From: Gallaecimonas kandeliae
GTDB taxonomy: Bacteria; Pseudomonadota; Gammaproteobacteria; Enterobacterales; Gallaecimonadaceae
Direction of reading: 5' to 3'
Assembly: GCF_030450055.1 (NCBI RefSeq)
Contig: NZ_CP118480.1
Span: 1,763,415 to 1,827,414 of the forward strand
Length of the DNA: 64,000 nt
Shown here: positions 1 to 63,509 of the stretch, in pieces
How the letters are laid out: each line of letters opens with the position of its first letter
Position numbering within the stretch: the stretch's first letter is position 1
Notes under the pieces: model-generated
The model's input: the letters and a program-made list of their open reading frames with translations, nothing else
Database searches by the model: none
Told to the model about the DNA's origin: nothing
Made by a program: the position numbers and the translations under genes

Positions 1-228
1 GCACATGTCGCATTGGGCCAGCTTCTTCATGCAGGGAAAGCAGTAGCCCTGGGAAAAGCTCTTCTTGGTCTTACGCCCACAATGGCAGCAATAGATGTTG
101 CCGGTAAAGGCCAGGGAGATGGGCTTGCCGATCAGCGGATTGAGGTCCAGCAGCTGCTCGCCCACCACCAGCTGGTAGGCCACTTCATCCCCTTGGCGGG
201 TGCGCATCTTGTCCAGGGTACCTAGCAT
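1..228 (-). CDS. DUF2797 family protein (C-terminus beyond the window)
   Basis: This partial gene runs off the left edge of the window. The visible 76 residues start MLGTLDKM, then carry a LNPLIGK segment and a cysteine-rich stretch (IYCCHCGRKTKKSF, QGYCFPC, LAQCDMC). This is the typical N-terminal half of DUF2797 proteins, whose CxxC pairs look like a zinc-binding site. The biochemical role of the family is unknown. I chose the ATG at 228 because family members begin at this point and a purine-rich stretch precedes it; an in-frame ATG at 246 would add six basic residues. It follows the GNAT gene on the same strand and may share its transcript. Confidence 0.75.
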   Translation of the reverse strand, partial: MLGTLDKMRTRQGDEVAYQLVVGEQLLDLNPLIGKPISLAFTGNIYCCHCGRKTKKSFSQGYCFPCMKKLAQCDMC

Positions 229-281
229 CTGTCTTCGTCTTTTCATGGCTTGGCCCGCCAGTATACAGGGCCTGGGCCGCT

Positions 282-692
282 TTAAAGATCTTTGGTCAGG
301 TAATGGCGGGCCCCGTCCAGGGGGTAGTGGTCCAGGGTGAAGGCCAGCACATAGCCGTGGCGCTCGTAAAAGGGCCTGGCCTGGAAGTCCAGGGTGTCGA
401 GGAAGGCCTTGGTGCAGCCGCGCTGACGGGCGGCGGTTTCCATGGCGGCCAGCAGCTTGCTGCCGGTGCCCTGGCCGCGCTGGGCCGGGTTGACCCAGAG
501 GTGCTCGATAAAGAGCCAGTTGCCGAAGGTGTTGCCGTCGATGCCGCCCAGCAGCTCGCCCTGGTCGCCTGCCAGGGACACGGCCAGGGGTTTGCGCGCT
601 ATGGCCGGCCAATGGGCCCTGTTGAAGCTGCGTATCTCAAGGCTCAGGCGCTCAAGCAGGGCCGGTTCAGGGTTGTCGTGGATTTGCATCAT
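282..692 (-). CDS. GNAT family N-acetyltransferase
   Basis: This 136-residue protein is a single GNAT domain. The acetyl-CoA pyrophosphate-binding motif is visible as NPAQRGQGTGSKLL at about residues 69-82, and the C-terminal FYERHGY segment is the usual motif B. Such enzymes transfer an acetyl group from acetyl-CoA to an amine; the substrate cannot be read from sequence. Two adjacent ATGs (692 and 689) are possible starts and no strong ribosome-binding site separates them. It lies 52 bp downstream of the MocR-type regulator on the same strand, so co-transcription is plausible. Confidence 0.85.
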   Translation of the reverse strand: MMQIHDNPEPALLERLSLEIRSFNRAHWPAIARKPLAVSLAGDQGELLGGIDGNTFGNWLFIEHLWVNPAQRGQGTGSKLLAAMETAARQRGCTKAFLDTLDFQARPFYERHGYVLAFTLDHYPLDGARHYLTKDL

Positions 693-744
693 GGTTCGGG
701 CTGAAGGGAAAACGCCTGGACTATGACAAAATCCGCCGCCGCCG

Positions 745-2193
745 TCACCTGGCGCCCGGGCCTGCCAGCTGGGTGAGGATATCCCCCAGGATGTCGAGGG
801 CCGGATCTATGTCGAGGGTCTCTATGGCGCCGTAGCCCAGCAGCAGCCCTTGGGCGCCTAGGCCTTCATGGTAGAAGCCGTCGATGGGGTAGAGCCCCAG
901 TTGCCGCTGTCTTGCCTGGGCGATGAGCTGCACCAGATCCAGCTTCTGCCTGGCCAGGGCCGTCAGGTGGAAGCCGGCTACCGACGGCACCAGTTCGAAC
1001 CAGGGAGCCAGGTCCCCCTGGAAACGGGCCAGCAGCCGTTCGCGGCGGCTGCTGAAGAGCTCGTGGCAGCGGCGGATGTGCTTGAGCAGCAGGCCCTCCT
1101 CGATGAACTTGACCAGCGCCCATTGGCTGAGGGTCGGGCTATGCCTGTCGATGAGGTGGCGGGCGGCGATGACGGCGGTCTGCAGGGATGGCGGCAGCAC
1201 TGTGTAGCCCAGGCGCAGCTCGGGCAGCAACGTCTTGGAAAAGGTGCCGACGTAGGCCACCAGCCCGGCCTGGTCCAGGCTGTAGAGGGTGTCAAGGGGC
1301 CTGCCTTCGTAGCGGAACTCGCAATCGTAGTCGTCTTCGATGATGACGGCGCCAAGGGCCTCGGCCTTGGCCAGCAGGGCCTTGCGCCTGGCGTCGCTCA
1401 TGGGCATGCCGAGGGGAAACTGGTGGGACGGGGTCACGTAGATGAGGCGAACCCCTTCAGGGATGGCGTCCACCACCAGGCCCTCGGCATCCACCGGCAC
1501 GCCTTGCACCTTGGCGCCCTGGGCCTCGAAACACTGGCGGGCCGGAGGGTAGCCGGGCTCTTCCACCGCCACCAGGCAACCGGGCTCGACCAGCACCCTG
1601 GCCAGCAGATCCAGGGCCTGCTGGGCACCGTTGCAGACCACCAGATCGTCAGCCTGGCATTGAACGCCGCGGCTGAAGCCGATGTGGTGGGCTATGGCGT
1701 GGCGCAATGCCGGCAGCCCTGCCGGCTGGCTGTAGAGGCCACGGGACTTGTCGGCCTGGCGCAGGGCATGCTGCACGCAGCGCCGCCAATCGTCTTGGGG
1801 GAAATGGGTCTTGGTGACGGCACCGCCGAGAAATTCGTAGCGTAGGGCCTGGTCTGGAGGAGGGTGGCGCAGGTTGTTCGCTATGCCTTGCCAGCGGCGC
1901 AGCGTATTGGCACTGGCGAGCCGGGGTTGGTGGTCCCTGGTGTTGGGCTCGGGAGGCCTTGGGCTGACGAAGGTACCGACACCGACCTTGCCTTGCAGCA
2001 GGTTGTCGTAGGTCAGCAGGGCGTAAGTGTCGGCCACTGTCTTGCGGGACAGCCCCAGCTGCTTGGCCAGCAGCCGGCTGGGCGGGAGCTGGCTGCCCGG
2101 TGCCAGGCGGCCCGATCTTATGGCGTCCTTGAGCTGGCGGTAGAGCTGCGCGCCAAGATCCCTGTCGCCTTCGATGACGAGGTGTAACTCCAT
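745..2193 (-). CDS. MocR/PdxR-type regulator (GntR helix-turn-helix fused to aminotransferase fold)
   Basis: The protein has an N-terminal GntR winged helix (LYRQLKDAIRSGRL, then LPPSRLLAKQLGLSRKTV) at about residues 12-75, joined to a fold-type I aminotransferase domain. The PLP-binding lysine is visible in GTFSKTLLPELRLGY. MocR-family proteins are transcription factors that use PLP as an effector; PdxR controls vitamin B6 synthesis, but other members control GABA, taurine or unrelated genes, so the target is unknown. I chose the ATG at 2193 (MELHLVIEG), which matches family N-termini and follows GGGAGAGG. An ATG at 2220 with its own AGGGGAG is a real alternative adding nine residues. Confidence 0.8.
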   Translation of the reverse strand: MELHLVIEGDRDLGAQLYRQLKDAIRSGRLAPGSQLPPSRLLAKQLGLSRKTVADTYALLTYDNLLQGKVGVGTFVSPRPPEPNTRDHQPRLASANTLRRWQGIANNLRHPPPDQALRYEFLGGAVTKTHFPQDDWRRCVQHALRQADKSRGLYSQPAGLPALRHAIAHHIGFSRGVQCQADDLVVCNGAQQALDLLARVLVEPGCLVAVEEPGYPPARQCFEAQGAKVQGVPVDAEGLVVDAIPEGVRLIYVTPSHQFPLGMPMSDARRKALLAKAEALGAVIIEDDYDCEFRYEGRPLDTLYSLDQAGLVAYVGTFSKTLLPELRLGYTVLPPSLQTAVIAARHLIDRHSPTLSQWALVKFIEEGLLLKHIRRCHELFSSRRERLLARFQGDLAPWFELVPSVAGFHLTALARQKLDLVQLIAQARQRQLGLYPIDGFYHEGLGAQGLLLGYGAIETLDIDPALDILGDILTQLAGPGAR

Positions 2194-2263
2194 CTTCCTC
2201 TCCCAAGGGGGCAAGGCCATTAGCCTAACTCCCCTTGGGTGGGGCTGAACAGGGCAGGTGCAC

Positions 2264-2291
2264 AAAGAAAAGGCCCGGTTTGTGCCGGGCC
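2264..2291 (-). terminator. Rho-independent terminator of the AhpD-like gene
   Basis: A 7-bp GGCCCGG/CCGGGCC stem with a 6-nt loop is followed on the minus strand by TTTTCTTT. It lies just past the stop codon of the AhpD-like gene at 2298 and separates it from the MocR-type gene. Confidence 0.8.
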
Positions 2292-2297
2292 CAGGGT

Positions 2298-2732
2298 TCA
2301 GGGCTTGAGGGCCATGCCGACGCCGAAGCGGTTCCAGGCGTTGATGGTGGCGATGGCCAGGGTCAGGTTGACTATCTCGGCGTCGCTGAAGTGCTGGCGC
2401 AGGGCCTCGAATTCCTGGTCGCTGGGGTGCTGCTGGGACAATTTGGTATTGCTCTCGGTCCAGGCCAGGGCGGCACGCTCCCTGGGGGTGAAGAAGTCGG
2501 TGTCGCGCCAGACGCCCAGGGTCTGCAGGCGGGCCTCGGTTTCACCGCCCTTACGGGCGTCCTCGGCGTGCATGTTGACACAATAGGCGCAACCGTTGAT
2601 CTGGGAGGCGCGCAGTCGCACCAGCTCCAGCAGAGGTTTATCCAGGCCTGACTTGGTTACGGCCTCTTCCATTGCCAACATGGCGTTGAAGGCGTCGGGG
2701 GCCGCTTTGGCCCATTGGATCCTGGCGGTCAT
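2298..2732 (-). CDS. Carboxymuconolactone decarboxylase / AhpD-like alkylhydroperoxidase
   Basis: This 144-residue all-helical protein belongs to the carboxymuconolactone decarboxylase (AhpD-like) family. The redox motif CAYCVNMH at about residues 47-54 has the CxxC and following histidine typical of peroxidase-active members, which reduce hydroperoxides through a cysteine pair. The substrate and reductant are not identifiable. The ATG at 2732 follows TTAGGAGACAGTACC, a good ribosome-binding site. The gene is probably monocistronic because a terminator follows its stop codon. Confidence 0.85.
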   Translation of the reverse strand: MTARIQWAKAAPDAFNAMLAMEEAVTKSGLDKPLLELVRLRASQINGCAYCVNMHAEDARKGGETEARLQTLGVWRDTDFFTPRERAALAWTESNTKLSQQHPSDQEFEALRQHFSDAEIVNLTLAIATINAWNRFGVGMALKP

Positions 2733-2836
2733 GGTACTGTCTCCTAAGGTGGCCCGCGCACTGCGGGGATGGCCTTACCTTAGAGCGACAGCGGCGCAAG
2801 ACGAATAGCCAATCCGGCGCTTTTCGGGTAGACCAC

Positions 2837-3208
2837 TCACCAGCGGCCTATGACTTCCAGCACCTTGCCGTCGCTGTTGAGCTTGGCCTCGATGTGGCGC
2901 TCGGTGCGATCGCCCCTGCTGTTGACGGCGCTGTACGTCAGCCGCACCACGAAATCGCTGCCGGCCGGCCAGCGGTTGACCGCCAGGCGCTCGAAGCTGT
3001 CGGGCTTGAAGAGGTTTTGCCTGGCCAGGCCTTCCAACTCGTCCAGCCCAGAAGGGCCGGCGGCAGGAGCGGGAAGGGAATTGACGTCCAGTTGATGTGC
3101 TGACTGGTCTTGCCGGTAGACATCTAAGGTAACGCCTAGGGCCAGGCAGAGGGTGGTGCCCAGCATGGCGGTTAGGGCAAGGAACCCGTAGTGCTGTCTT
3201 GTTGCCAT
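2837..3208 (-). CDS. Hypothetical single-pass membrane or secreted protein
   Basis: I do not recognise this 123-residue protein. Residues about 7-29 form one hydrophobic segment (FLALTAMLGTTLCLALGV) that could be a membrane anchor or an uncleaved signal. A Pro/Ala-rich linker follows, then a C-terminal half with alternating beta-like segments (SDFVVRLTYSAVNSRGDRTERH), which suggests a small periplasmic domain. It is divergent from mntP across about 260 bp. No catalytic motif is visible. Confidence 0.55.
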   Translation of the reverse strand: MATRQHYGFLALTAMLGTTLCLALGVTLDVYRQDQSAHQLDVNSLPAPAAGPSGLDELEGLARQNLFKPDSFERLAVNRWPAGSDFVVRLTYSAVNSRGDRTERHIEAKLNSDGKVLEVIGRW

Positions 3209-3319
3209 GATGACCTTCCTGAGTGATGGGAGACAACCGCTTCCTTATTGAACAGCCGTTCATCAGCATAGCCCAGGATCCTGACCTTGCTTTCAATAGC
3301 TTGCCTTGATACCTTGGCC

Positions 3320-3410
3320 GCCGCTTTGGGGAGTAGCCGGCTCTCGCCAAAGATGGCCTCTATCAGGATGCCGGGTCCCAAGGACCCTGGTGCAGGCGAC
3401 CTCCAGATAG
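3320..3410 (+). promoter_or_regulatory. yybP-ykoY (Mn2+-sensing) riboswitch in the mntP leader
   Basis: The segment contains the family's hallmark GGGGAGTAGCC at 3328-3338 and a matching 3' motif GGCGACCT at about 3395-3402. Flanking TTTGG and CCAGA can pair to close the P1 helix. The family binds Mn2+ and typically controls manganese exporters, and an mntP gene follows 60-70 nt downstream, as in E. coli. I assigned it from motif, pairing and context, not from a covariance-model score. Confidence 0.78.
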
Positions 3411-3471
3411 GCAAGGCCGTGCCATCGGGTGCCTGCCTTGCTGCTGTTATTTGCCTGTTCAGGACAATTCA

Positions 3472-4038
3472 ATGAGCCTCTTCTCCCTCATCCTCATCGC
3501 CTTTGCCATGTCCACTGACGCCTTTGCCGTAGCCTTGGCCAGGGGCGCCGCCCTGCGCCATCCCCGCTTCTCCCATGCCTTGAAAGACGGCTTGCTGTTC
3601 GGCCTGGTGGAAGGCCTGACCCCGCTGCTGGGCTGGCTCTTGGGGGTGGGGGCCGCCGGCTATATCGCCGAATGGGATCACTGGCTGGCCTTCGGCCTGT
3701 TATCGGCCCTGGGCGCCAAGATGATCCATGAGGGCCTGCAGGCCCCGGATACGGATGTCGAACCCAGACGCCGCGCCATCTGGCTGCTGCTGGTCACCGC
3801 CATGGCCACCAGCGTCGATGCCCTGGTGGTGGGCCTCGGCTTTGCCTTCGTCAAGGTCGATATCCTGGTCGCATCCCTGCTGATCGGCCTGGCCACCACC
3901 CTGATGGTGACCCTGGGCCTGCTCGTCGGTCGGCAGTTGGGCAGCTGGCTTGGCAAGAAGGCCGAGGTGGCCGGCGGCCTGGTGCTTATCGTCGTCGGCA
4001 GCCTGATCCTGCGCCAGCACCTGCTGGGCCTGGCCTGA
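3472..4038 (+). CDS. mntP: Manganese efflux pump MntP
   Basis: This 188-residue inner-membrane protein, the usual family length, exports Mn2+. Its six hydrophobic segments are arranged as two related halves, each with an acidic motif in the membrane (FAMSTDAFAVALARG near the N-terminus and MATSVDALVVGLGF in the second half). The ATG at 3472 follows AGGA with 6-nt spacing; a longer in-frame start at 3451 lacks family support. The yybP-ykoY riboswitch upstream implies induction by excess manganese. Confidence 0.93.
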   Translation: MSLFSLILIAFAMSTDAFAVALARGAALRHPRFSHALKDGLLFGLVEGLTPLLGWLLGVGAAGYIAEWDHWLAFGLLSALGAKMIHEGLQAPDTDVEPRRRAIWLLLVTAMATSVDALVVGLGFAFVKVDILVASLLIGLATTLMVTLGLLVGRQLGSWLGKKAEVAGGLVLIVVGSLILRQHLLGLA

Positions 4039-4117
4039 GCCGGACAGCTCTGGGACCTAGCAGCTGGGGCGCCCCAGCTGCTAAGGTGTGCCGAAGTCCC
4101 TTTTAGGAAGTACCCCT

Positions 4118-4615
4118 ATGGATACCCCCAGCCACCAGCTCAGCATGAGCGTCTTGATGACGCCGGACATGGCCAACTTCTCCGGCAAGGTCCATGGCGG
4201 CGAACTGCTGTCCTACCTCGACAAGGTGGCCTATGCCTGCGCAAGCCGTTACGCCGGCGCCTACGTGGTGACCCTGTCGGTGGACAGGGTGATGTTCCGC
4301 CAGGCCATCAACGTCGGCGAGCTGGTGACCTTCCTGGCCTCGGTCAACTACACCGGCACCACCTCCATGGAGGTGGGGATCAAGGTGATCACCGAGGACA
4401 TCCGCAACAAGGTGGTGCGCCACACCAACAGCTGTTACTTCACCATGGTGGCCCTGGATGACGAGGGCAAGCCGACGCCGGTGCCGCCCCTGGTGCCCGG
4501 CACCGAGGAGGAAAAGCAGCGTTTCGAGGCCGCCATACTGCGCCGCAAGCTGCTCAAGGAGCAGGACGCGGCCCACGACGCCATCAAGCACCAGGTCAGG
4601 AAAAAAGAGCTCTAA
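4118..4615 (+). CDS. Acyl-CoA thioesterase (hotdog fold, YciA/BACH type)
   Basis: The protein hydrolyses acyl-CoA thioesters. The hotdog-domain signature is clear: NFSGKVHGGELLSYLDKVAYACASRY near the N-terminus, followed by VVTLSVDRVMFRQAINVGELVTF. A charged C-terminal tail (FEAAILRRKLLKEQDAA) extends beyond the domain. I chose the ATG at 4118, preceded by AGGAAG with 7-nt spacing; an upstream in-frame ATG at 4088 lacks this. Chain-length preference cannot be read from sequence. The gene stands alone between intergenic spaces and ends at a terminator. Confidence 0.88.
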   Translation: MDTPSHQLSMSVLMTPDMANFSGKVHGGELLSYLDKVAYACASRYAGAYVVTLSVDRVMFRQAINVGELVTFLASVNYTGTTSMEVGIKVITEDIRNKVVRHTNSCYFTMVALDDEGKPTPVPPLVPGTEEEKQRFEAAILRRKLLKEQDAAHDAIKHQVRKKEL

Positions 4616-4640
4616 AAAAGCCGCCCTTGGGCGGCTTTTC
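4614..4640. terminator. Bidirectional terminator between the thioesterase and 4642-5058 genes
   Basis: A perfect 7-bp GCCGCCC/GGGCGGC stem with a 2-nt centre is flanked by A6 on the left and T4 on the right, so it can stop transcription from both converging genes. Confidence 0.85.
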
Positions 4641-4641
4641 T

Positions 4642-5058
4642 TCATTCCAAGGAGACGACATAGCCGGTGTAGACAGTGGCGATGCCGGGAAAGCCTTCCC
4701 AACTCTTCGCGAAGCGGTATCGGGTCATGGGTTTCCCTTCGACCTTGATGGGTTTGACGCTGTAGCTGTTCTGGCGGCTGCTGGCGATGTCCAGCAGTTG
4801 GTTTAGGGTCATGCAGCGGCGGAGCTGGTGGGCTTGCAGTGCCTGATCGAAGCCAGAACGGTCGACCCCGGCGCAGGGGTGCCAGGAGGGCACAGTGCCG
4901 GTGGGAGCGGTTGCCAGCGGTTTAGGCCCGGGCTTGTCGTCCTTTTCGGCTTTTTGTTCGGGGCAGGGGACTTGTTGGTACTGGCCTGGGCCGCATTGAT
5001 AGACGGCGGCCTGGCTAAAGGGTGCCAACAGGGACACCAAGGGCAGGGCTCTAAGCAT
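4642..5058 (-). CDS. Secreted protein with DUF4124-like N-terminus
   Basis: The 138-residue product begins with a signal peptide (MLRALPLVSLLAPFSQA) likely cleaved before AVYQCG. The motif VYQCGPGQYQQVPCP resembles the start of DUF4124 proteins, which are small periplasmic proteins of unknown function. Four cysteines suggest disulfides. I chose the ATG at 5058 because GGAGG lies 5 nt upstream; the longer reading frame from 5082 adds eight residues before the signal peptide. The gene is downstream of nothing obvious and converges on the thioesterase. Confidence 0.65.
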   Translation of the reverse strand: MLRALPLVSLLAPFSQAAVYQCGPGQYQQVPCPEQKAEKDDKPGPKPLATAPTGTVPSWHPCAGVDRSGFDQALQAHQLRRCMTLNQLLDIASSRQNSYSVKPIKVEGKPMTRYRFAKSWEGFPGIATVYTGYVVSLE

Positions 5059-5130
5059 TTTGCCTCCATGCAGTTTGCTCACCGCCAGGCTAACACGCCA
5101 AAACCCCGCGTCAAAACAGGATCCCCTAAA

Positions 5131-5158
5131 GAAAACCCCGCCAGGAGGCGGGGTTTTT
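5131..5158. terminator. Terminator at the end of metG
   Basis: A 7-bp CCCCGCC/GGCGGGG stem with an AGGA loop has T5 on the + side and T4 on the - side. It lies directly after the metG stop codon and is the expected metG terminator. Confidence 0.85.
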
Positions 5159-5160
5159 GC

Positions 5161-7185
5161 TTACTTGACGCGCATGCCGGGCTGGGCGCTGCCGGCTGAG
5201 GCGCCGTCGTCCGGGCCCAGCACCCAGAGATCGCTGCCGCCGGGGCCGGCGGCCAGCACCATGCCTTCGCTCATGCCGAACTTCATCTTGCGGGGCGCGA
5301 GGTTCGCCACCATGACGGTGAGCTTGCCCTGGAGATCCTCGGGCGCGTAGGCGGACTTGATGCCGGCGAACACCTGGCGGGTCTCGCCGCCCAAGTCCAG
5401 CTCCAGGCGCAGCAGCTTGTCGGCCCCTTCCACGTGCTCGGCCTTATTGATGCGGGCGATGCGCAGGTCGACCTTGGCGAAATCCTCAAAGCTGATCTCC
5501 GGGCTGATGGGGTCATCCATCAGGGGGCCTTCGACTTTCTTCACCATGTTCTCCTTGGAAGCTTCGACCATGGCTTCGATATTGGCCGGCTCGATGCGGC
5601 TCATCATGGCCTGGAAGGGGTTGATGGCGCGGCCGACCAGCAGTTCGCTGCGGTTGTCCCAGCCCAGTTCCACGCCCAGGAAGGCCTCGACCTTCTTGGC
5701 AAGTGTAGGCAGCACGGGTTTGAGGTAGGTGACCAGCACCTTGAAGAGGTTGAGGCTGGCGGTGCAGACCCTGTGGGCCTCTTCCAGGGTGTCGTCGTTC
5801 TTGACCAGCACCCAGGGGGCGGTGTCGGCGATGTAGACGTTGGCCTTGTCGGCCAGGGCCATGATCTCGCGGACGGCGCGGCCGAACTCGCGGGCCTCAA
5901 AGGCGCGGGCTATGTCGTCGCCCTTGGCCACGAACTCGTCGAAGAGGCCGGTATCGAAGGCGTCGGCCAGTTTGCCGTCGAAGCGCTTGGTGACGAAGCC
6001 GGCGGTGCGCGACGCGATGTTGACCAGTTTGCCCACCAGGTCGGCGTTGACCCTCTGGCTGAAGTCTTCGAGGTTCAAGTCCAGATCGTCGATACGGTGG
6101 GACAGCTTGGCTGCGTAGTAGTAGCGCAGGTATTCCGGGTCCAGGTGGTCCAGGTAGGTGCGGGCCTTGATGAAGGTGCCGCGGGACTTGGACATCTTGG
6201 CGCCGTTGACGGTGACATAGCCGTGGGCGAAGACGTTGGACGGCTTGCGCAAACCTGCGCCGTCCAGCATGGCCGGCCAGAACAGGCTGTGGAAGTAGAT
6301 GATGTCCTTGCCGATGAAGTGGTAGACCTCGGCATCGGAGTCCTGCTTCCAGAAGTCGTCGAAGTTCAGCCCCGTCTTGGCGCAGAGCGCCTTGAAGGAG
6401 GCGAGGTAGCCGATGGGCGCGTCCAGCCAGACGTAAAAATACTTGCCGGGGGCATTGGGGATCTCGAAGCCGAAGTAGGGGGCGTCGCGGGAGATGTCCC
6501 AGCGGGCAAGGCCCTGTTCGAACCATTCGCCGAGCTTGTTGGCCATCTCTTCCTGCAAGGAGCCGGAGCGGATCCACGCCTTGAGCATGCCCTCGAAGGC
6601 GGGGAGATCGAAGAAGTAGTGCACCGAGTCCTTCAGTACAGGGGTGGCTCCGGATACCACGGACTTGGGATCTTTCAAGTCCACCGGCTGGTAGGTGGCG
6701 CCGCAGACTTCACAGTTGTCGCCGTTCTGATCTTCGGCGCCGCACTTGGGGCAGGTACCCTTGACGAAGCGGTCCGGCAGGAACATCTGTTCCTGGGGGT
6801 CGAACAACTGGGAGATGGTCTCGGTCTTGATATAGCCGCCGTCATGGAGGCGGTTATAGATGAGTTCGGCCAGCTCGCGGTTCTCATCGCTGTGGGTGCT
6901 GTGGTAGTGGTCGAAGCCTATCTCGAAGTCGGCGAAGTCGGCCTGGTGCTCCACATTGGTCTTGGCGATCATCTCCTCAGGGCTTATCCCCTGCTCTCTA
7001 GCCTTGAGCATGATGGGGGTGCCGTGGGCGTCGTCCGCGCACACATAATAGGTTTCGTTGCCACGGAGTTTTTGGAAACGGACCCAGATGTCGGTCTGGA
7101 TGTATTCCAGCATGTGGCCCAGGTGGATGGGACCGTTGGCATAGGGCAGGGCGCTGGTGACCAGAATGCGGCGCGAATTAGCCAT
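5161..7185 (-). CDS. metG: Methionyl-tRNA synthetase
   Basis: MetG charges tRNA-Met with methionine. The 674-residue protein is close to the E. coli length of 677. It shows the HIGH-type motif in PIHLGHML, a zinc knuckle with CPKC and CEVC at about residues 144-163, the KMSKS loop (GAKMSKSRG) and a C-terminal EMAP/tRNA-binding domain from [11 protein letters not shown] onward. I chose the ATG at 7185 ([18 protein letters not shown]), which matches the family; the 34 upstream in-frame residues are not conserved-looking. It is divergent from apbC/mrp, an arrangement common in gammaproteobacteria. Confidence 0.97.
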
Positions 7186-18215: not shown

Positions 18216-18292
18216 TGGTCGGCGCGAGAGGATTTGAACCTCCGACCCCTGACACCCCATGACAGTGCGCTACCAGGCTGCGCTACGCGCCG
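18216..18292 (-). tRNA. tRNA-Pro (anticodon GGG), copy 1
   Basis: The 77-nt minus-strand sequence begins CGGCGCGTAGCGCAGCC, has a GGTTCAAATCC T-arm and ends with an encoded CCA. The acceptor stem CGGCGCG/CGCGCCG is perfect. The anticodon loop ATGGGGT gives anticodon GGG, which reads CCC and CCU proline codons; the stem has the U-U mismatch also found in E. coli proL, which this gene closely resembles. Confidence 0.96.
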
Positions 18293-18342
18293 TTGACCAC
18301 TTTGCTGCAATAAGCGTGGGGACTTGCCGTGCAGCGGCCGCT

Positions 18343-18371
18343 AATGTCCTCGATCTTGGCCTTGGATGCAA
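18343..18371 (-). promoter_or_regulatory. Promoter of tRNA-Pro copy 1
   Basis: On the minus strand TTGCAT (18371-18366) and GACATT (18348-18343) are separated by 17 bp, followed by a GC-rich discriminator. The -35 side is conserved with the second tRNA-Pro copy. Confidence 0.6.
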
Positions 18372-18435
18372 GTGCTCTTTGCATTTTCCCCTGCCGACTG
18401 CCGACTTTCTGGCCGACTTGCTAGCGCATTGAGCA

Positions 18436-18918
18436 TCAGGGGTGGTGAACCAGGCAAAAACCTTCTGCGGCGTCCGGTGCTTCGAAGTAGCTGCACAGGG
18501 CGGCGAACTGGGCCTGGGTGGGGGCAAAGGGATGCTCGCCCCTGGCATTGCGCTCGAGCACCCTGTCCAGGCAGAGGACCTCTGGCTGGTCCAGGTAATG
18601 CAGTTGGTGGGGCAGGCCGGCTTCTTCTGCCAGTTCCCTTGCCCAGGCCCGGCTGGCACGGGTGTTCAAGGGGAAGTCCAGCACCAGGCTCAGCCCCTGG
18701 TCCAACAGCGCCAGCAGGTGGCCCTTGAGCGCCGTGCGCAGCCTGGGGGCAAAACGGCCGTAATCGGCCAGGCTCTTAAGCTCGGGGCCGAAGAGGGCGG
18801 CCAGCCAGTCGTCTTCGCTCAGCAGCAGGTGGCCCGGCTCTGCCGCCAGGCGCTTGGCCAGGGTGGACTTGCCGGCCCCGGCCTTGCCACAGAAAAAGTG
18901 CAGTCTTGTTGAGGGCAT
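18436..18918 (-). CDS. P-loop kinase / AAA-type ATP-binding protein
   Basis: The 160-residue protein begins with a Walker A motif (FFCGKAGAGKSTLAKRLA, residues 8-25) and has LLLSEDDWLAALFG and LVLDFPLNTRASRAW segments, the layout of small nucleotide-kinase-like or zeta-toxin-like ATP-binding proteins. Substrate unknown. No antitoxin-like partner gene is adjacent, so I do not call it a toxin. The ATG at 18918 follows AAGGAG with 8-nt spacing. It lies between two identical tRNA-Pro copies and may have arrived or been bracketed by the duplication. Confidence 0.72.
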   Translation of the reverse strand: MPSTRLHFFCGKAGAGKSTLAKRLAAEPGHLLLSEDDWLAALFGPELKSLADYGRFAPRLRTALKGHLLALLDQGLSLVLDFPLNTRASRAWARELAEEAGLPHQLHYLDQPEVLCLDRVLERNARGEHPFAPTQAQFAALCSYFEAPDAAEGFCLVHHP

Positions 18919-18951
18919 GGGTATCTCTCCTTGGTTGCCTATGCCCTGAAA

Positions 18952-18978
18952 AACGAAAACCCGCCTTCCAGGGCGGGT
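18952..18978 (-). terminator. Terminator upstream of the P-loop kinase gene
   Basis: On the minus strand ACCCGCCC and GGCGGGT pair around TGGAA and are followed by TTTTCGTTTT. No annotated gene ends here. A 20-codon reading frame (18997-19059) just precedes it. Confidence 0.65.
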
Positions 18979-19116
18979 CTGCTGCCGATACCAGCGCTAG
19001 TCCGCCATCAAGGGAATGGCGGTAATAATGACGCTGGTGAGGGCAGGGAAGTTCTTCATGGCCCCAGCATCGCTGTTGGCAAGGGCAGGGTCAAGAGGGG
19101 AGGCGAGCGCGCAAAG

Positions 19117-19147
19117 AAAAAGCCCCCACCTTGCGGTGAGGGCTTTC
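19117..19147 (-). terminator. Terminator of tRNA-Pro copy 2
   Basis: This has the same hairpin and T-tract as the terminator of copy 1. Confidence 0.85.
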
Positions 19148-19153
19148 TCGTTA

Positions 19154-19230
19154 TGGTCGGCGCGAGAGGATTTGAACCTCCGACCCCTGACACCCCATGA
19201 CAGTGCGCTACCAGGCTGCGCTACGCGCCG
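19154..19230 (-). tRNA. tRNA-Pro (anticodon GGG), copy 2
   Basis: It is identical over all 77 nt to the copy at 18216-18292, including the encoded CCA and GGG anticodon. It has its own promoter and terminator, so both copies should be expressed. Confidence 0.96.
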
Positions 19231-59279: not shown

Positions 59280-60575
59280 ATGCTGCCACGTCCCCCCGTA
59301 CTGCCCTTGTTCGACGCCCCCCAGCACCTGGAAGACGGTAACCCCGTCGTCAACCAGCACCTGGCCGAGATCAGCCTGGGCCAGGTCGAAGATGCCGGCC
59401 TCGTCTACGAGCATGCCCTGGACTGGTTGCTCGAGGCTGCCCACAACGACAACAACTACAAGACCTACAGATCCGAACTCACCACTTACCTGCATTGGTG
59501 CTTCGATGTGGAGCAGATCAGCCCAGGGGCGGTGCGGCGGCGTAACCTGGGCCGCTACGTGGCCTATTGCCAATCACCCCCCAAGGCCCTTATCGCCTAC
59601 CGCAACGTGGCCCAGTTTGTCCTCGACAAGGAGTGGCAGTGCCGGCTGCCCAACCCCCAGTGGCGGCCTTTCCTCGGCAAACGCCAGGGTGGGGTAGAGC
59701 AGCCCTATCGGCTGAGCCCCAAGGCCCTGACCACCAAGCTGGCCATCCTCTCTTCCTTTTACAGCTACCTTATCGGCGAGGAATATACGGAGCACAATCC
59801 CGCCGCCCTCTGGCTGAGGCACCATGGCAGCAATGCCAGGAATGAGGGCCGCTTCTCGGCGCATGAAGAAGAGATAAAGATCTTCAGCGAGTTACAGTGG
59901 TCTTACATCATGGAGGTGGCCGAAACCCTGGCGTCGGCAGAGCCGCAGAAACACGAAAGAACCCTGTTCCTGGTGAGCCTGCTCTATGGTTGCTACCTGC
60001 GCCTCTCGGAAGTGGCGGCCAGGCCCGGCTTTTCACCCGGCATGGGCCAGTTCCGCCGGGACCAAAAGACCGGGATCTGGGGTTTTTTCGTGCCCCAGAG
60101 CAAGGGCGGCAAGAAGCGCACAGTGGCGGTCTCCAAGGCATTGCTGGCGGCCCTCAAACGCTACCGGCGCTTCCTGGGCCTGCCGGCATTGCCGGCCCCC
60201 GATGACAGGGCGCCCCTTTTTGTCCGGCGCAAGGCTGCCGGGCGGGGCAGGGAAGTAGGGGAGCTCAATGCCAACCTGGGGGTGCGCCAGCTCAGGGACG
60301 AAGTCGAGGGGCTGATCCAGGCAGCGGCGGACGCCATGGAAAAGGAGGGCTTTGCCCAGGACGCCAGGGAGATGCGTGGCCTGACCGCCCACAGCATCCG
60401 CCATACCGGCATCACCCACGACATCAACCTGGTCGGCAGGCCCTTGTCCCATGTGCAGGCCGACGCCGGCCACGACAGCATCCATACCACCAGCCTCTAT
60501 CTGCATACCGCCAGGGAAGAGCGTCACCAGAGCGCCGAGAACAAATCCCTGAACCGCCTGGGCGGTATAGGCTAG
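59280..60575 (+). CDS. Tyrosine-type site-specific recombinase/integrase
   Basis: The 431-residue protein has an N-terminal SAM-like DNA-binding domain and a C-terminal catalytic domain. The catalytic residues are visible: Arg in YLRLSEV (about 241), Lys in SKGGKKRTV, HSIRH (His about 371, Arg about 374), GHDS and Tyr in TTSLYLHTA (about 407). It is not XerC/XerD or an integron integrase by sequence pattern. No adjacent attachment site, cassette array or phage gene is visible, so it may be a stand-alone or remnant recombinase. A LexA-box promoter precedes it. Confidence 0.87.
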   Translation: MLPRPPVLPLFDAPQHLEDGNPVVNQHLAEISLGQVEDAGLVYEHALDWLLEAAHNDNNYKTYRSELTTYLHWCFDVEQISPGAVRRRNLGRYVAYCQSPPKALIAYRNVAQFVLDKEWQCRLPNPQWRPFLGKRQGGVEQPYRLSPKALTTKLAILSSFYSYLIGEEYTEHNPAALWLRHHGSNARNEGRFSAHEEEIKIFSELQWSYIMEVAETLASAEPQKHERTLFLVSLLYGCYLRLSEVAARPGFSPGMGQFRRDQKTGIWGFFVPQSKGGKKRTVAVSKALLAALKRYRRFLGLPALPAPDDRAPLFVRRKAAGRGREVGELNANLGVRQLRDEVEGLIQAAADAMEKEGFAQDAREMRGLTAHSIRHTGITHDINLVGRPLSHVQADAGHDSIHTTSLYLHTAREERHQSAENKSLNRLGGIG

Positions 60576-60664: not shown

Positions 60665-60928
60665 ATGCCTCATCGCTATCTTGTCGCCATCGAAAACCGC
60701 AACGGTGAATACAATCATCAGCTGCACGACGTGCTGGTGGCTTGGCGGGCTATCAAGCTGCAAGAAGGGCTTTGGTATCTGGAATCGGGCATCACCAAGT
60801 TAGCCCAGCCGCTACTCGACGAGTTGCGCAAACACCTCAGCACCCAGGACCGGCTGGTCGTCTCTGAATGCGATGACATAGCCCATCTGCACACCATCAA
60901 CCCCTTGCCGTTACGCCACCAGAACTAA
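60665..60928 (+). CDS. Small Cas2/SinR-like ferredoxin-fold protein (tentative)
   Basis: The 87-residue protein (MPHRYLVAIENRNGEYNHQL, LHDVLVAWRAIKLQEGLWYL, LRKHLSTQDRLVVSECD) follows the beta-alpha-beta pattern of stand-alone Cas2/SinR-like proteins: a strand-forming start, a helix, a YLES strand and a C-terminal DRLVV strand. No CRISPR array or cas gene is in the window. The match is by pattern only. No catalytic role is claimed. Confidence 0.5.
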   Translation: MPHRYLVAIENRNGEYNHQLHDVLVAWRAIKLQEGLWYLESGITKLAQPLLDELRKHLSTQDRLVVSECDDIAHLHTINPLPLRHQN

Positions 60929-60953
60929 TGCCGATAACGTCATTTATCGGCAT
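60928..60953. repeat. Inverted repeat after the SinR-like gene
   Basis: ATGCCGATAA and TTATCGGCAT are perfect 10-bp arms with a 6-nt loop. It may act as a terminator, but the T-tract is short (CTTAG follows). Confidence 0.5.
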
Positions 60954-60959
60954 CTTAGA

Positions 60960-61187
60960 TCAGCTTGTGTGGCAACCCGGACAGCAGATCCCACAGCCAT
61001 CAGCATTGGGCATGATCAGTTTTGCCTGAGCTACAGCTGGCTCACAAGAATCAAACATCCCGATCTGCTTCAATTTATTGGTGTTCTTCGGCAGCAAATG
61101 ACAATCATCACGATGAACTTCATGGTCTATGTAGCTGCCAGAATCGTCTTCATTCAGATTCAGGTAGTAGATGTGCAGGTTTTCCAT
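60960..61187 (-). CDS. Small cysteine-rich conserved protein
   Basis: The 75-residue protein has a HEVHRDDCHLLP segment, a SCEPAVAQAK helix and a C-terminal GCGICCPGCHTS motif, the arrangement of a widespread bacterial hypothetical family ending in CHTS. The clustered cysteines suggest metal binding. GGAGAG precedes the ATG. Codon use is more AT-rich than in neighbouring genes. Function is unknown. Confidence 0.65.
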   Translation of the reverse strand: MENLHIYYLNLNEDDSGSYIDHEVHRDDCHLLPKNTNKLKQIGMFDSCEPAVAQAKLIMPNADGCGICCPGCHTS

Positions 61188-61235: not shown

Positions 61236-61508
61236 TCAGTCGTGTTTGGGTTCCTCATAGAAATCTGGCTCCGAATCCACGGCCGTGGCAGAGATCCTGA
61301 CAGTCTGGCCATGGTGCCAGCCGGTCTTGGCCAGCAGGCTCGGCTCGGCGTTGTCGGGAACAATGAAGTAGTAACCGTACACCATGTCGCCATCGTGGCC
61401 GGTGTCGGCATTAAGGTCGACGTCCAGTTGCAGCCATTCCTCGACGCTGATCCCAAGTTCATCGGCAATTGATCTCGCTTGCTGCGCATCCCCGAAGTAG
61501 TCGCCCAT
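61236..61508 (-). CDS. Hypothetical acidic protein
   Basis: I do not recognise this 90-residue protein (MGDYFGDAQQARSIADELG, then VEEWLQLDVDLNADTGHDGD). It is acidic with no membrane segment. GGGAG lies about 9 nt before the ATG. The gene stands between the cysteine-rich protein and the dif site. Confidence 0.5.
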   Translation of the reverse strand: MGDYFGDAQQARSIADELGISVEEWLQLDVDLNADTGHDGDMVYGYYFIVPDNAEPSLLAKTGWHHGQTVRISATAVDSEPDFYEEPKHD

Positions 61509-61697: not shown

Positions 61698-61725
61698 ATT
61701 GCGCATAATGTATATTATGTTAAAT
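61698..61725. other. dif: dif site (XerCD chromosome-dimer-resolution site)
   Basis: The 28 bp read XerC arm ATTGCGCATAA, central TGTATA and XerD arm TTATGTTAAAT. This equals the E. coli dif except for the first two bases (26 of 28). GGGNAGGG octamers (FtsK KOPS-like) left of it are mostly on the + strand, and one right of it (about 62831) is on the - strand, as expected for convergence on dif. A Xer-using mobile-element site is the alternative. Confidence 0.88.
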
Positions 61726-62123: not shown

Positions 62124-62735
62124 TTAAGGTACATAGGCTCTTAAAAATGTTGCCACAGCTCTGTTGGCCACTACGGTGATCTCTTTTTCGTCTGGTGACT
62201 CTGTTCTCACCTGCAACAGCAATGGTTCAAGAATTTCAGCTTCCAATAAGCTGCGAAAATGCTCGGCGGCAAGCCGGGGATCCTCGTTGCGCAGGACACC
62301 TGATGCCATCAGCTGAGACAGAAACTTCTCGACAGGCTCCCGCAACGCCGCCAGTTTGGCGTAGAACAATCTACCGATGTCCGAGCGGTGTGCCTCTGCG
62401 ATCATCAGGCGCTGGACTTCTATTACCTCGGGAGAGCAAACGAAGCTCAGGTAACGTATGCCATAGTCAAGCAATGCCTGTTCAGGCTCTGTCCCTGATG
62501 CATCCAGTTGTTCGGCGGCCTGGGTCGTGATGTCGGTGATGAAATCTTCCGCACTCGCCGTCATGCATTCGACGAACAACTCTTCTTTTGAAGGAAAGTG
62601 GTTGTAGACCGTTGCCTTTGAACCGCCAAACTCGACGGTGATTTGGGAGACAGAGGTTCTGTCAAATCCTTGGGTCCGGAATAATCGGTAAGCGGCATCT
62701 AGGATAGCCTGCCGCTTTGCGTCCCTTTTTTTCAT
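62124..62735 (-). CDS. TetR/AcrR family regulator (paralogue 1)
   Basis: The 203-residue protein has an N-terminal TetR helix-turn-helix (RQAILDAAYRLFRTQGFDRT, VSQITVEFGGSKATVYNHF) and a helical ligand-binding domain. It is closely related to the next TetR protein, especially in the first 60 residues. Its upstream region carries an operator-like site (62756-62774) shared with that gene. The ligand is unknown. Confidence 0.9.
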   Translation of the reverse strand: MKKRDAKRQAILDAAYRLFRTQGFDRTSVSQITVEFGGSKATVYNHFPSKEELFVECMTASAEDFITDITTQAAEQLDASGTEPEQALLDYGIRYLSFVCSPEVIEVQRLMIAEAHRSDIGRLFYAKLAALREPVEKFLSQLMASGVLRNEDPRLAAEHFRSLLEAEILEPLLLQVRTESPDEKEITVVANRAVATFLRAYVP

Positions 62736-62774: not shown

Positions 62775-62843
62775 CTCTTGGTAGTTTGCCAGAGTCAATC
62801 CGAGCTGGTGATTTTTGGGCGTCGGCATGTGCCCCCTGCCCTT

Positions 62844-63449
62844 CTATCCCGCCGGAGCATAGGCTCGTATGAACGTCGTCACAGCCCTATCCGCCGCTTG
62901 TCTGATCTCCTGTTCGCCTGGTGCTACTTCCGTTGCCTGAAGCAACAGGGGTTCGAGTATCTCTGCTTCAAGGAGAGCCCTAAGGTGACTGGCGGCAAGC
63001 CGGGGATCGTCACGGCGCAAGACGCCAGAGGCCATGAGTTGCTCCAGGAAGACCTCAACGTGCCCACGCAAGGCCGTGAGCTTGGCGAAGAACAGTTTGC
63101 CTATGCCTGAACGATCCGCCTCAGCAATAAGCAACCGTTGCACCGCAACCCAGCGGGAGGAGGCGACAAAACTCAGGAAACTGTCGCCGAAATTCCGCAA
63201 CAGGGCCTCCGGATCTTTTTCCGACTGGTCCAATAGCGCGATGATGCTGGAGATGTAATCCTCCGTGGCCGCCATCATGCATTCGACGAACAACACTTCC
63301 TTCGATGGGAAGTGGTTATAGATCGTTGCCTTGGATCCCCCTACCTCGGCGGAGATCTCGGAAACCGATGTCGCGTCAAATCCCTTGTTCCGGAACAGCC
63401 GGTAAGCGGTCTCTAAGATGGTTTGCCGCTTGGTGTTCCTCTTCTTCAT
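62844..63449 (-). CDS. TetR/AcrR family regulator (paralogue 2)
   Basis: The 201-residue protein has the same layout as the preceding TetR gene (RQTILETAYRLFRNKGFDAT, GGSKATIYNHFPSKEVLF) and is divergent from the NodT-type efflux gene, the usual arrangement of an efflux repressor. ATG 63449 follows GGAGG; upstream in-frame codons to 63509 overlap the promoter region and were not included. It probably represses its own gene and the efflux operon. Confidence 0.92.
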   Translation of the reverse strand: MKKRNTKRQTILETAYRLFRNKGFDATSVSEISAEVGGSKATIYNHFPSKEVLFVECMMAATEDYISSIIALLDQSEKDPEALLRNFGDSFLSFVASSRWVAVQRLLIAEADRSGIGKLFFAKLTALRGHVEVFLEQLMASGVLRRDDPRLAASHLRALLEAEILEPLLLQATEVAPGEQEIRQAADRAVTTFIRAYAPAG

Positions 63450-63460
63450 AAGGCCTCCAC

Positions 63461-63479
63461 AAACTAAACCGTACAGTTC
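63461..63479. promoter_or_regulatory. Operator for TetR, tetR-proximal copy
   Basis: AAACTAAACCGTACAGTTC differs from the palindrome at 63516-63534 at three positions. It lies between the tetR -10 and its start codon, so binding would block tetR transcription. Confidence 0.65.
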
Positions 63480-63480
63480 A

Positions 63481-63509
63481 ATTGTCACTTGACAGCGCAC
63501 CGGGGTCAA
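63481..63509 (-). promoter_or_regulatory. Promoter of TetR paralogue 2
   Basis: On the minus strand TTGACC (63509-63504) and GACAAT (63486-63481) are 17 bp apart, immediately before the operator at 63461-63479. Confidence 0.65.

Follow-up and report, generated by a model that had tools for sequence, protein, structure and literature searches.

The locus

The window, by which we mean the whole 64,000-nucleotide stretch of the Gallaecimonas kandeliae chromosome that was analyzed (C1:1763415-1827414), carries toward its right end a compact arrangement of a gene for a 431-aa tyrosine recombinase (59280 to 60575, + strand), a palindromic site that we call S (60928 to 60953) and a dif site (61698 to 61725, + strand). 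The 3' end of the recombinase gene points toward dif, and both the gene and S are found within 2.4 kb of it. Three small ORFs lie between the recombinase gene and dif, coding for 87 aa (60665 to 60928, + strand), 75 aa (60960 to 61187, - strand) and 90 aa (61236 to 61508, - strand). Past dif, two TetR-family regulators whose C-terminal domains are AefR-like lie side by side (62124 to 62735 and 62844 to 63509, both on the - strand) and are followed, from 63600, by an ORF that on reading resembles outer membrane efflux proteins and runs off the window. Elsewhere in the window, two tRNA-Pro(GGG) genes are found 0.9 kb apart (18216 to 19230, - strand), with a match to the Rfam sRNA P9 between them.

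A canonical dif at the point of KOPS convergence

The dif site has the canonical organization of a XerC arm, a 6-bp center and a XerD arm and differs from the 28-mer that we take to be E. coli dif by two mismatches, both at the first two bases; no match of this level arose in 100 shuffles. The first-pass annotation had described it as a near-perfect dif that places the replication terminus in the window, and both parts of this description held up. In the complete, single-contig chromosome of 3,836,841 bp, the search for further copies retrieved this one alone at up to three mismatches (none for the backwards control), at about position 1,825,112, or 0.476 of the length of the contig. One such dif each is present in 32 of 40 relatives, the genome itself counted in. 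The same annotation had counted roughly twenty copies of the octamer GGGNAGGG directed toward dif against two or three in the opposite sense; the actual figures to the left of dif are 31 on the + strand (3071 to 60252) and 2 on the - strand (14765 and 39369), and the single reversed copy that it had placed to the right at about 62831 is found at 62834 to 62841 (- strand). The total of 34 is not above the 30.2 ± 6.0 seen in shuffles, and it is the polarity of the octamers, not their number, that is the informative signal.

Across 33 sampled sources covering 0.70 of 3.84 Mb, KOPS motifs number 112 on the + strand and 27 on the - strand to the left of dif and 30 and 112, respectively, to the right. 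In a contiguous 320-kb stretch, the switch in polarity is located in the interval from -1453 to +1136 bp relative to dif; hence, it falls within 1.5 kb of the site and not far from the locus, which supports the placement of the terminus in the window. Genome-wide, GGGCAGGG occurs 490 times on the + strand and 421 times on the - strand (50 and 39 for the backwards motif). The GC skew is shallow around dif, and its cumulative maximum, computed over the contiguous 320 kb only, lies 58.6 kb to the right; this weakens the terminus reading slightly. XerD is encoded elsewhere in the genome, far from dif (358.8 bits, over the cut-off), as is a second Xer protein, which matches the XerD model at 286.5 bits and which we take to be XerC. 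We conclude that the site is confirmed as a genuine dif, and the evidence supports its interpretation as the working site of XerCD where KOPS converge. As such, it is an ordinary feature; the surprising part is the recombinase and the palindrome next to it.

A tyrosine recombinase distinct from XerC and XerD

The product of the gene beside dif matches the phage integrase family (PF00589) at 1.4e-10. It scores 48.6 bits with the XerC model (cut-off, 335) and 47.7 bits with the XerD model (cut-off, 330), values far under the curated cut-offs; it likewise scores 28 bits with the XerS model (cut-off, 267). The gene is present in a single copy in the genome. We recovered the complete catalytic hexad R-K-H-R-H-Y (R241, K275, H371, R374, H398 and Y407), which is invariant in 34 of 34 aligned relatives; across these 34 proteins as called, the catalytic tyrosine is found at positions 386 to 429. 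An AlphaFold2 model (pLDDT, 87.7; pTM, 0.61) retrieved Cre, XerA, the Tn1549 integrase, IntI and XerH in Foldseek searches with E values of 7.5e-6 to 2.6e-4 and TM scores of up to 0.6. Thus, judged by its catalytic residues, its PF00589 match and its predicted fold, the protein is a tyrosine recombinase.

Searches of 50,697 deposited phage genome records retrieved no relatives of the recombinase. Plasmids of Pseudomonas, Vibrio and Cupriavidus often carry relatives (344 plasmid records), which may act there as plasmid resolvases on other sites; three Vibrio plasmids have no S in the roughly 4 kb around the recombinase. Shewanella baltica plasmid pSbal01 (positions 1 to 5912 of a 117-kb record) carries ccoN, the recombinase and S, like the chromosomal terminus of its relatives, and no dif occurs in that stretch of the record.

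The recombinase and dif are linked in related genomes

A scan of GTDB genomes, from which the best 80 of 147 relatives were kept (58 to 70% identical), revealed dif within 10 kb of the recombinase gene in 54 of the 80, downstream of the gene in every case; the distance is at most 500 bp in 29 and at most 2 kb in 39. The orientation of dif relative to the gene is the same in 46 and opposite in 8. The remaining 26 loci include 24 whose genomes have one dif each: in ten, dif shares the contig of the gene and lies 10.4 to 19.4 kb downstream; in nine, it is on another contig; four (L108, L124, L126 and L135) are on contigs that end within 2.8 kb downstream of the gene; and in one (L095), dif is on a separate contig even though the recombinase contig continues for 45 kb. 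No dif was seen in the other two (L085 and L100). A second set of 295 order-level genomes, which overlaps the first in species, includes 50 with a close relative (more than 500 bits). Here, dif is on the recombinase contig in 42, always downstream of the gene, within 500 bp in 21 and at most 31.5 kb away; it is on another contig in 7 and absent from 1 (G037). In L095, G469 and G511, S and dif are found together, with the recombinase on a separate contig. The record of G037 seems to have been cut open at dif, because its contig C1 (4,330,933 bp) ends 76 bp past the recombinase match, carries a one-mismatch S near its start and has no dif.

The genes upstream of the recombinase vary by group, with Oceanisphaera and Shewanella (cytochrome cbb3 oxidase), Aeromonas, Tolumonas and Marinobacterium each having their own context. 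General synteny is therefore rejected as the cause of the linkage, and the recombinase-dif pair stays together while its surroundings change. In a quick tree, the recombinases group roughly by genus (Aeromonas, 27 rows with one change and support of 100; Tolumonas, support of 99), but the agreement is not strict, with changes needed in Shewanella (3), Marinobacterium (5) and Oceanimonas (3).

It could be argued that dif alone matters in this linkage and that the recombinase is a passively inherited leftover integrase of an element that formerly used the terminus, with S as its old attachment site. Integrases are indeed common beside dif: in the part of a 2009 survey used here, 14.2% of 161 dif sites flank insertion sequence, transposase or integrase genes, which was read as mobility (PMC2731167). 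Moreover, many loci have filamentous prophages inserted between the recombinase and dif, and remnants abound in the region. A mere leftover is harder to reconcile with the invariance of the hexad, with a gene that is intact across several families, with a pair that is kept while the upstream genes change and with a family that persists without XerCD and dif (see below). We regard this explanation as improbable, though not negligibly so.

The palindromic site S and its carriage by filamentous prophages

S in the window, ATGCCGATAA-CGTCAT-TTATCGGCAT, is an uninterrupted palindrome with perfect 10-bp arms and a 6-bp center. It matches the pattern with no mismatches (2 of 100 shuffles gave a match at up to three), lies between the recombinase and dif and has no other copy in the genome at up to two mismatches. 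A short form, TGCCGATAA-N6-TTATCGGCA, is found upstream of many related recombinase genes, the window having the longer form. When we examined the 63 loci that combine the recombinase with a downstream dif (two pairs of which share identical proteins), S was present in all 63 at up to two mismatches, or three inside a called ORF. It is solely upstream of the recombinase in 36, solely downstream in 25 and on both sides in 2; five further cases outside this count (L119, L121, G514, G526 and G625) have S on both sides together with larger insertions, so the upstream and downstream placements do not strictly exclude each other. The nearest S is at most 1.6 kb from dif in 29 of 30 genomes that have both on one contig (8.8 kb in the exception). 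At up to one mismatch, S is present in 31 of 32 genomes with a close relative of the recombinase, the exception being G615, and in none of 7 genomes without the recombinase.

Among the small ORFs of the window, the 87-aa one resembles ORFs in just two loci, both from the same genus (L063 and L064; 39.5% identity), and has no Pfam match, and the 90-aa one has relatives only in the same-genus loci L033, L063 and L064. The 75-aa ORF is probably a prophage remnant, being 39 to 45% identical to ORFs in L263, L229, L276 and L289 (E values, 8e-13 to 6e-10), which belong to S-bearing stretches of filamentous prophages. We detected no dif-like remnant in the recombinase-dif interval of the window (best, 11 mismatches); remnants of the XerC arm are found near the recombinase in L128, L120, L121 and L138.

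Exact copies of S occur in 65 IMG/VR stretches (3 for the backwards pattern); a Zot-like gene is present in 46 of the 65, the recombinase in 26 and dif in 19. One prophage array has genes matching Zot, Rep_trans and Phage_CRI. IMEX filamentous phages of the CTXphi type integrate at dif. In G514, the recombinase and dif are separated by a prophage plus three 7,726-bp units in tandem, the repeat terminates within dif and the XerC arm is retained at the junctions; in this array, the only one examined, integration thus did not occur at S. It follows that at least the phages of this array are IMEX-like in integrating at dif, and they bring S with them. Like the IMEX phages CTXphi and XacF1, they are Zot-bearing tandem prophages with, in the array examined, a repeat ending within dif; they differ in also carrying S, the site of the neighboring module. 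The phage-borne S lies about 50 to 720 bp from the dif end. On reading one prophage family (L287, 2205000 to 2224999 of G514, and IMG/VR stretches), we observed an overlap of S with the region around the replication gene's start codon, which indicates that the arms of S are maintained at the DNA level within the coding sequence. Given the resemblance of the ORF at 60960 to 61187 to those of S-bearing prophages, the S of the window is probably a phage-borne copy left by a decayed filamentous prophage that had integrated at dif.

An S that is solely upstream of the gene in 36 of the 63 loci and overlaps the start of a replication gene in one prophage family might also serve not in recombination but as an operator for phage genes or for the recombinase gene. 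We give this little credence, because 25 of the 63 loci, in which S is solely downstream, have none before the gene; the tight spacing between S and dif and the combination of identical arms with a variable 6-bp center, which is the layout of Xer sites, also speak against an operator.

Diverged relatives persist where XerCD and dif are lost

The family extends to diverged relatives, those at the order level being 26 to 39% identical to the recombinase of the window, and another palindrome often lies just upstream of their genes. Such a palindrome with perfect arms of at least 12 bp is found in 12 of 40 diverged relatives versus 6 of 1,117 control windows; the other 28, which include most of those at the class level, have no perfect upstream palindrome of this size. 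Of the 24 order-level genomes that have a diverged relative, 8 carry dif on the contig that holds the relative's gene, 0.46 to 9.5 kb away (upstream in 7 and downstream in 1).

We searched for XerD with TIGR02225 and, in the order-level genomes, for dif at up to three mismatches. Fourteen of the 24 genomes have dif, and XerD is over the cut-off in all 12 of these that were scanned; among the 10 without dif, all of which were scanned, XerD is over the cut-off in none. At the class level, XerD is over the cut-off in none of the 31 genomes scanned out of 46 with a relative. A looser dif search there gave matches in 5 of 47 genomes and was convincing only in G217, a fragmented genome with two dif-like copies on short contigs and no XerD over the cut-off. 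Among genomes without a match to the recombinase family, 25 of 25 have two Xer matches, which are over the cut-off in 24.

The genus g16 presents the same locus with and without dif and XerCD. In G435 and G453, which have XerD and a second Xer match, the order is dif, about 76 to 86 bp, a palindrome with 15-bp arms, about 45 bp and the recombinase. G019 of this genus has an orthologue that is 74 to 76% identical, with the same palindrome at the same locus and the same two genes on one side, but no dif at the locus or, at up to three mismatches, anywhere in the genome, and no XerD. In G484, the palindrome is kept among different neighbors, and both dif and XerD are absent. In the complete genome of G519, which lacks dif and a XerD over the cut-off, the skew is positive in 10 of 10 sampled stretches to the left of the gene-bearing one and negative in 9 of 9 to its right; within 200 kb, the GC skew peaks at a distance of 12 kb from the recombinase gene, and a palindrome with 16-bp arms immediately precedes this gene. 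In G213, which is without XerCD, the gene lies about 110 to 180 kb from the GC skew switch. A reading in which dif itself is the substrate, with the recombinase as a third enzyme for this site and S unrelated, is very unlikely even though the 3' end of the gene is 5 to 201 bp from dif in 35 of the 63 loci, since diverged relatives persist without dif, several of them beside palindromes of their own, and dif is found in either orientation relative to the gene (46 versus 8).

Relationship to known Xer systems and a proposed mechanism

The window shares with the E. coli-type XerCD/dif and FtsK/KOPS system the 28-bp dif, the convergence of KOPS and the genes for XerD and a XerC-like protein; it differs in the second recombinase and the palindrome next to dif. 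The closest precedent in layout is XerL of the Legionellales, described in the part of the study used here as a single recombinase that is both necessary and sufficient at a dif whose inverted repeats are uninterrupted, with Tyr387 as the catalytic residue (PMC9765430). According to the same source, xerL lies more than 400 kb from dif in L. pneumophila, and in Coxiella, a palindrome beside a plasmid copy of xerL was assayed as a recombination site. The features in common are one recombinase of about 400 to 430 aa with a late catalytic tyrosine, an uninterrupted palindrome and, in part of the family of the window recombinase, missing XerCD; this likeness is by layout and not by sequence comparison, and the genome of the window differs in retaining XerCD and a canonical dif. 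In XerS/difSL and XerH/difH, the recombinase gene adjoins its own site at the terminus, as given in the parts of two papers used here (PMC5357621, PMC2731167), and the window recombinase likewise adjoins a putative site at the terminus. Unlike the window, genomes with those systems have no XerCD/dif beside the module, and the sequence match, to the XerS model, is weak. Among the titles and abstract openings covered by our literature search, we found no description of a module of recombinase and palindrome on the side of dif.

On the basis of these observations, we propose, with a probability of roughly 0.6, that a working XerCD/dif system is accompanied here by a one-protein, XerL-like dimer resolution unit, consisting of the recombinase and S, that is parked beside dif. 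By analogy with XerL, the recombinase most likely recombines S. It would bind both of the identical arms and catalyze strand exchange between two copies of S across the 6-bp center, as XerL does at its palindromic dif. Placed at the terminus, such a unit could resolve chromosome dimers, redundantly as long as XerCD is present and as the only dimer resolution system once XerCD and dif are gone; in the genome of the window, which retains both, it would be dispensable for this purpose. The S used in the window would be the one left behind at dif by the filamentous prophage before its decay. Counting against the proposal of a parked unit are the offset in G213, the 28 of 40 diverged relatives without a perfect palindrome, G217, G615, the loci split between contigs and the variable orientation of dif.

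Implications

The recombinase family, with palindromes of its own, occurs both beside canonical dif sites and in genomes without XerCD, and it seems to stand in for XerCD/dif in several related bacteria. Since one genus has been caught in both states, the replacement can be tested gene by gene. What is new here is a presumptive XerL-like unit beside a living XerCD/dif system, together with filamentous phages that carry a second terminus site. More broadly, we tentatively suggest that two independent dimer resolution systems may share the terminus in many Gammaproteobacteria and that the module on the side of dif may repeatedly take over after the loss of XerCD and dif; on balance, we hold this wider claim with some reserve. 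The part of the 2009 survey used here left unexplained what replaces dif/Xer in large genomes such as those of Colwellia psychrerythraea and Saccharophagus degradans (PMC2731167), a question that XerL, in the part of that study used here, solved for the Legionellales (PMC9765430). If true, a terminus shared in this way would explain such large genomes without dif/Xer.
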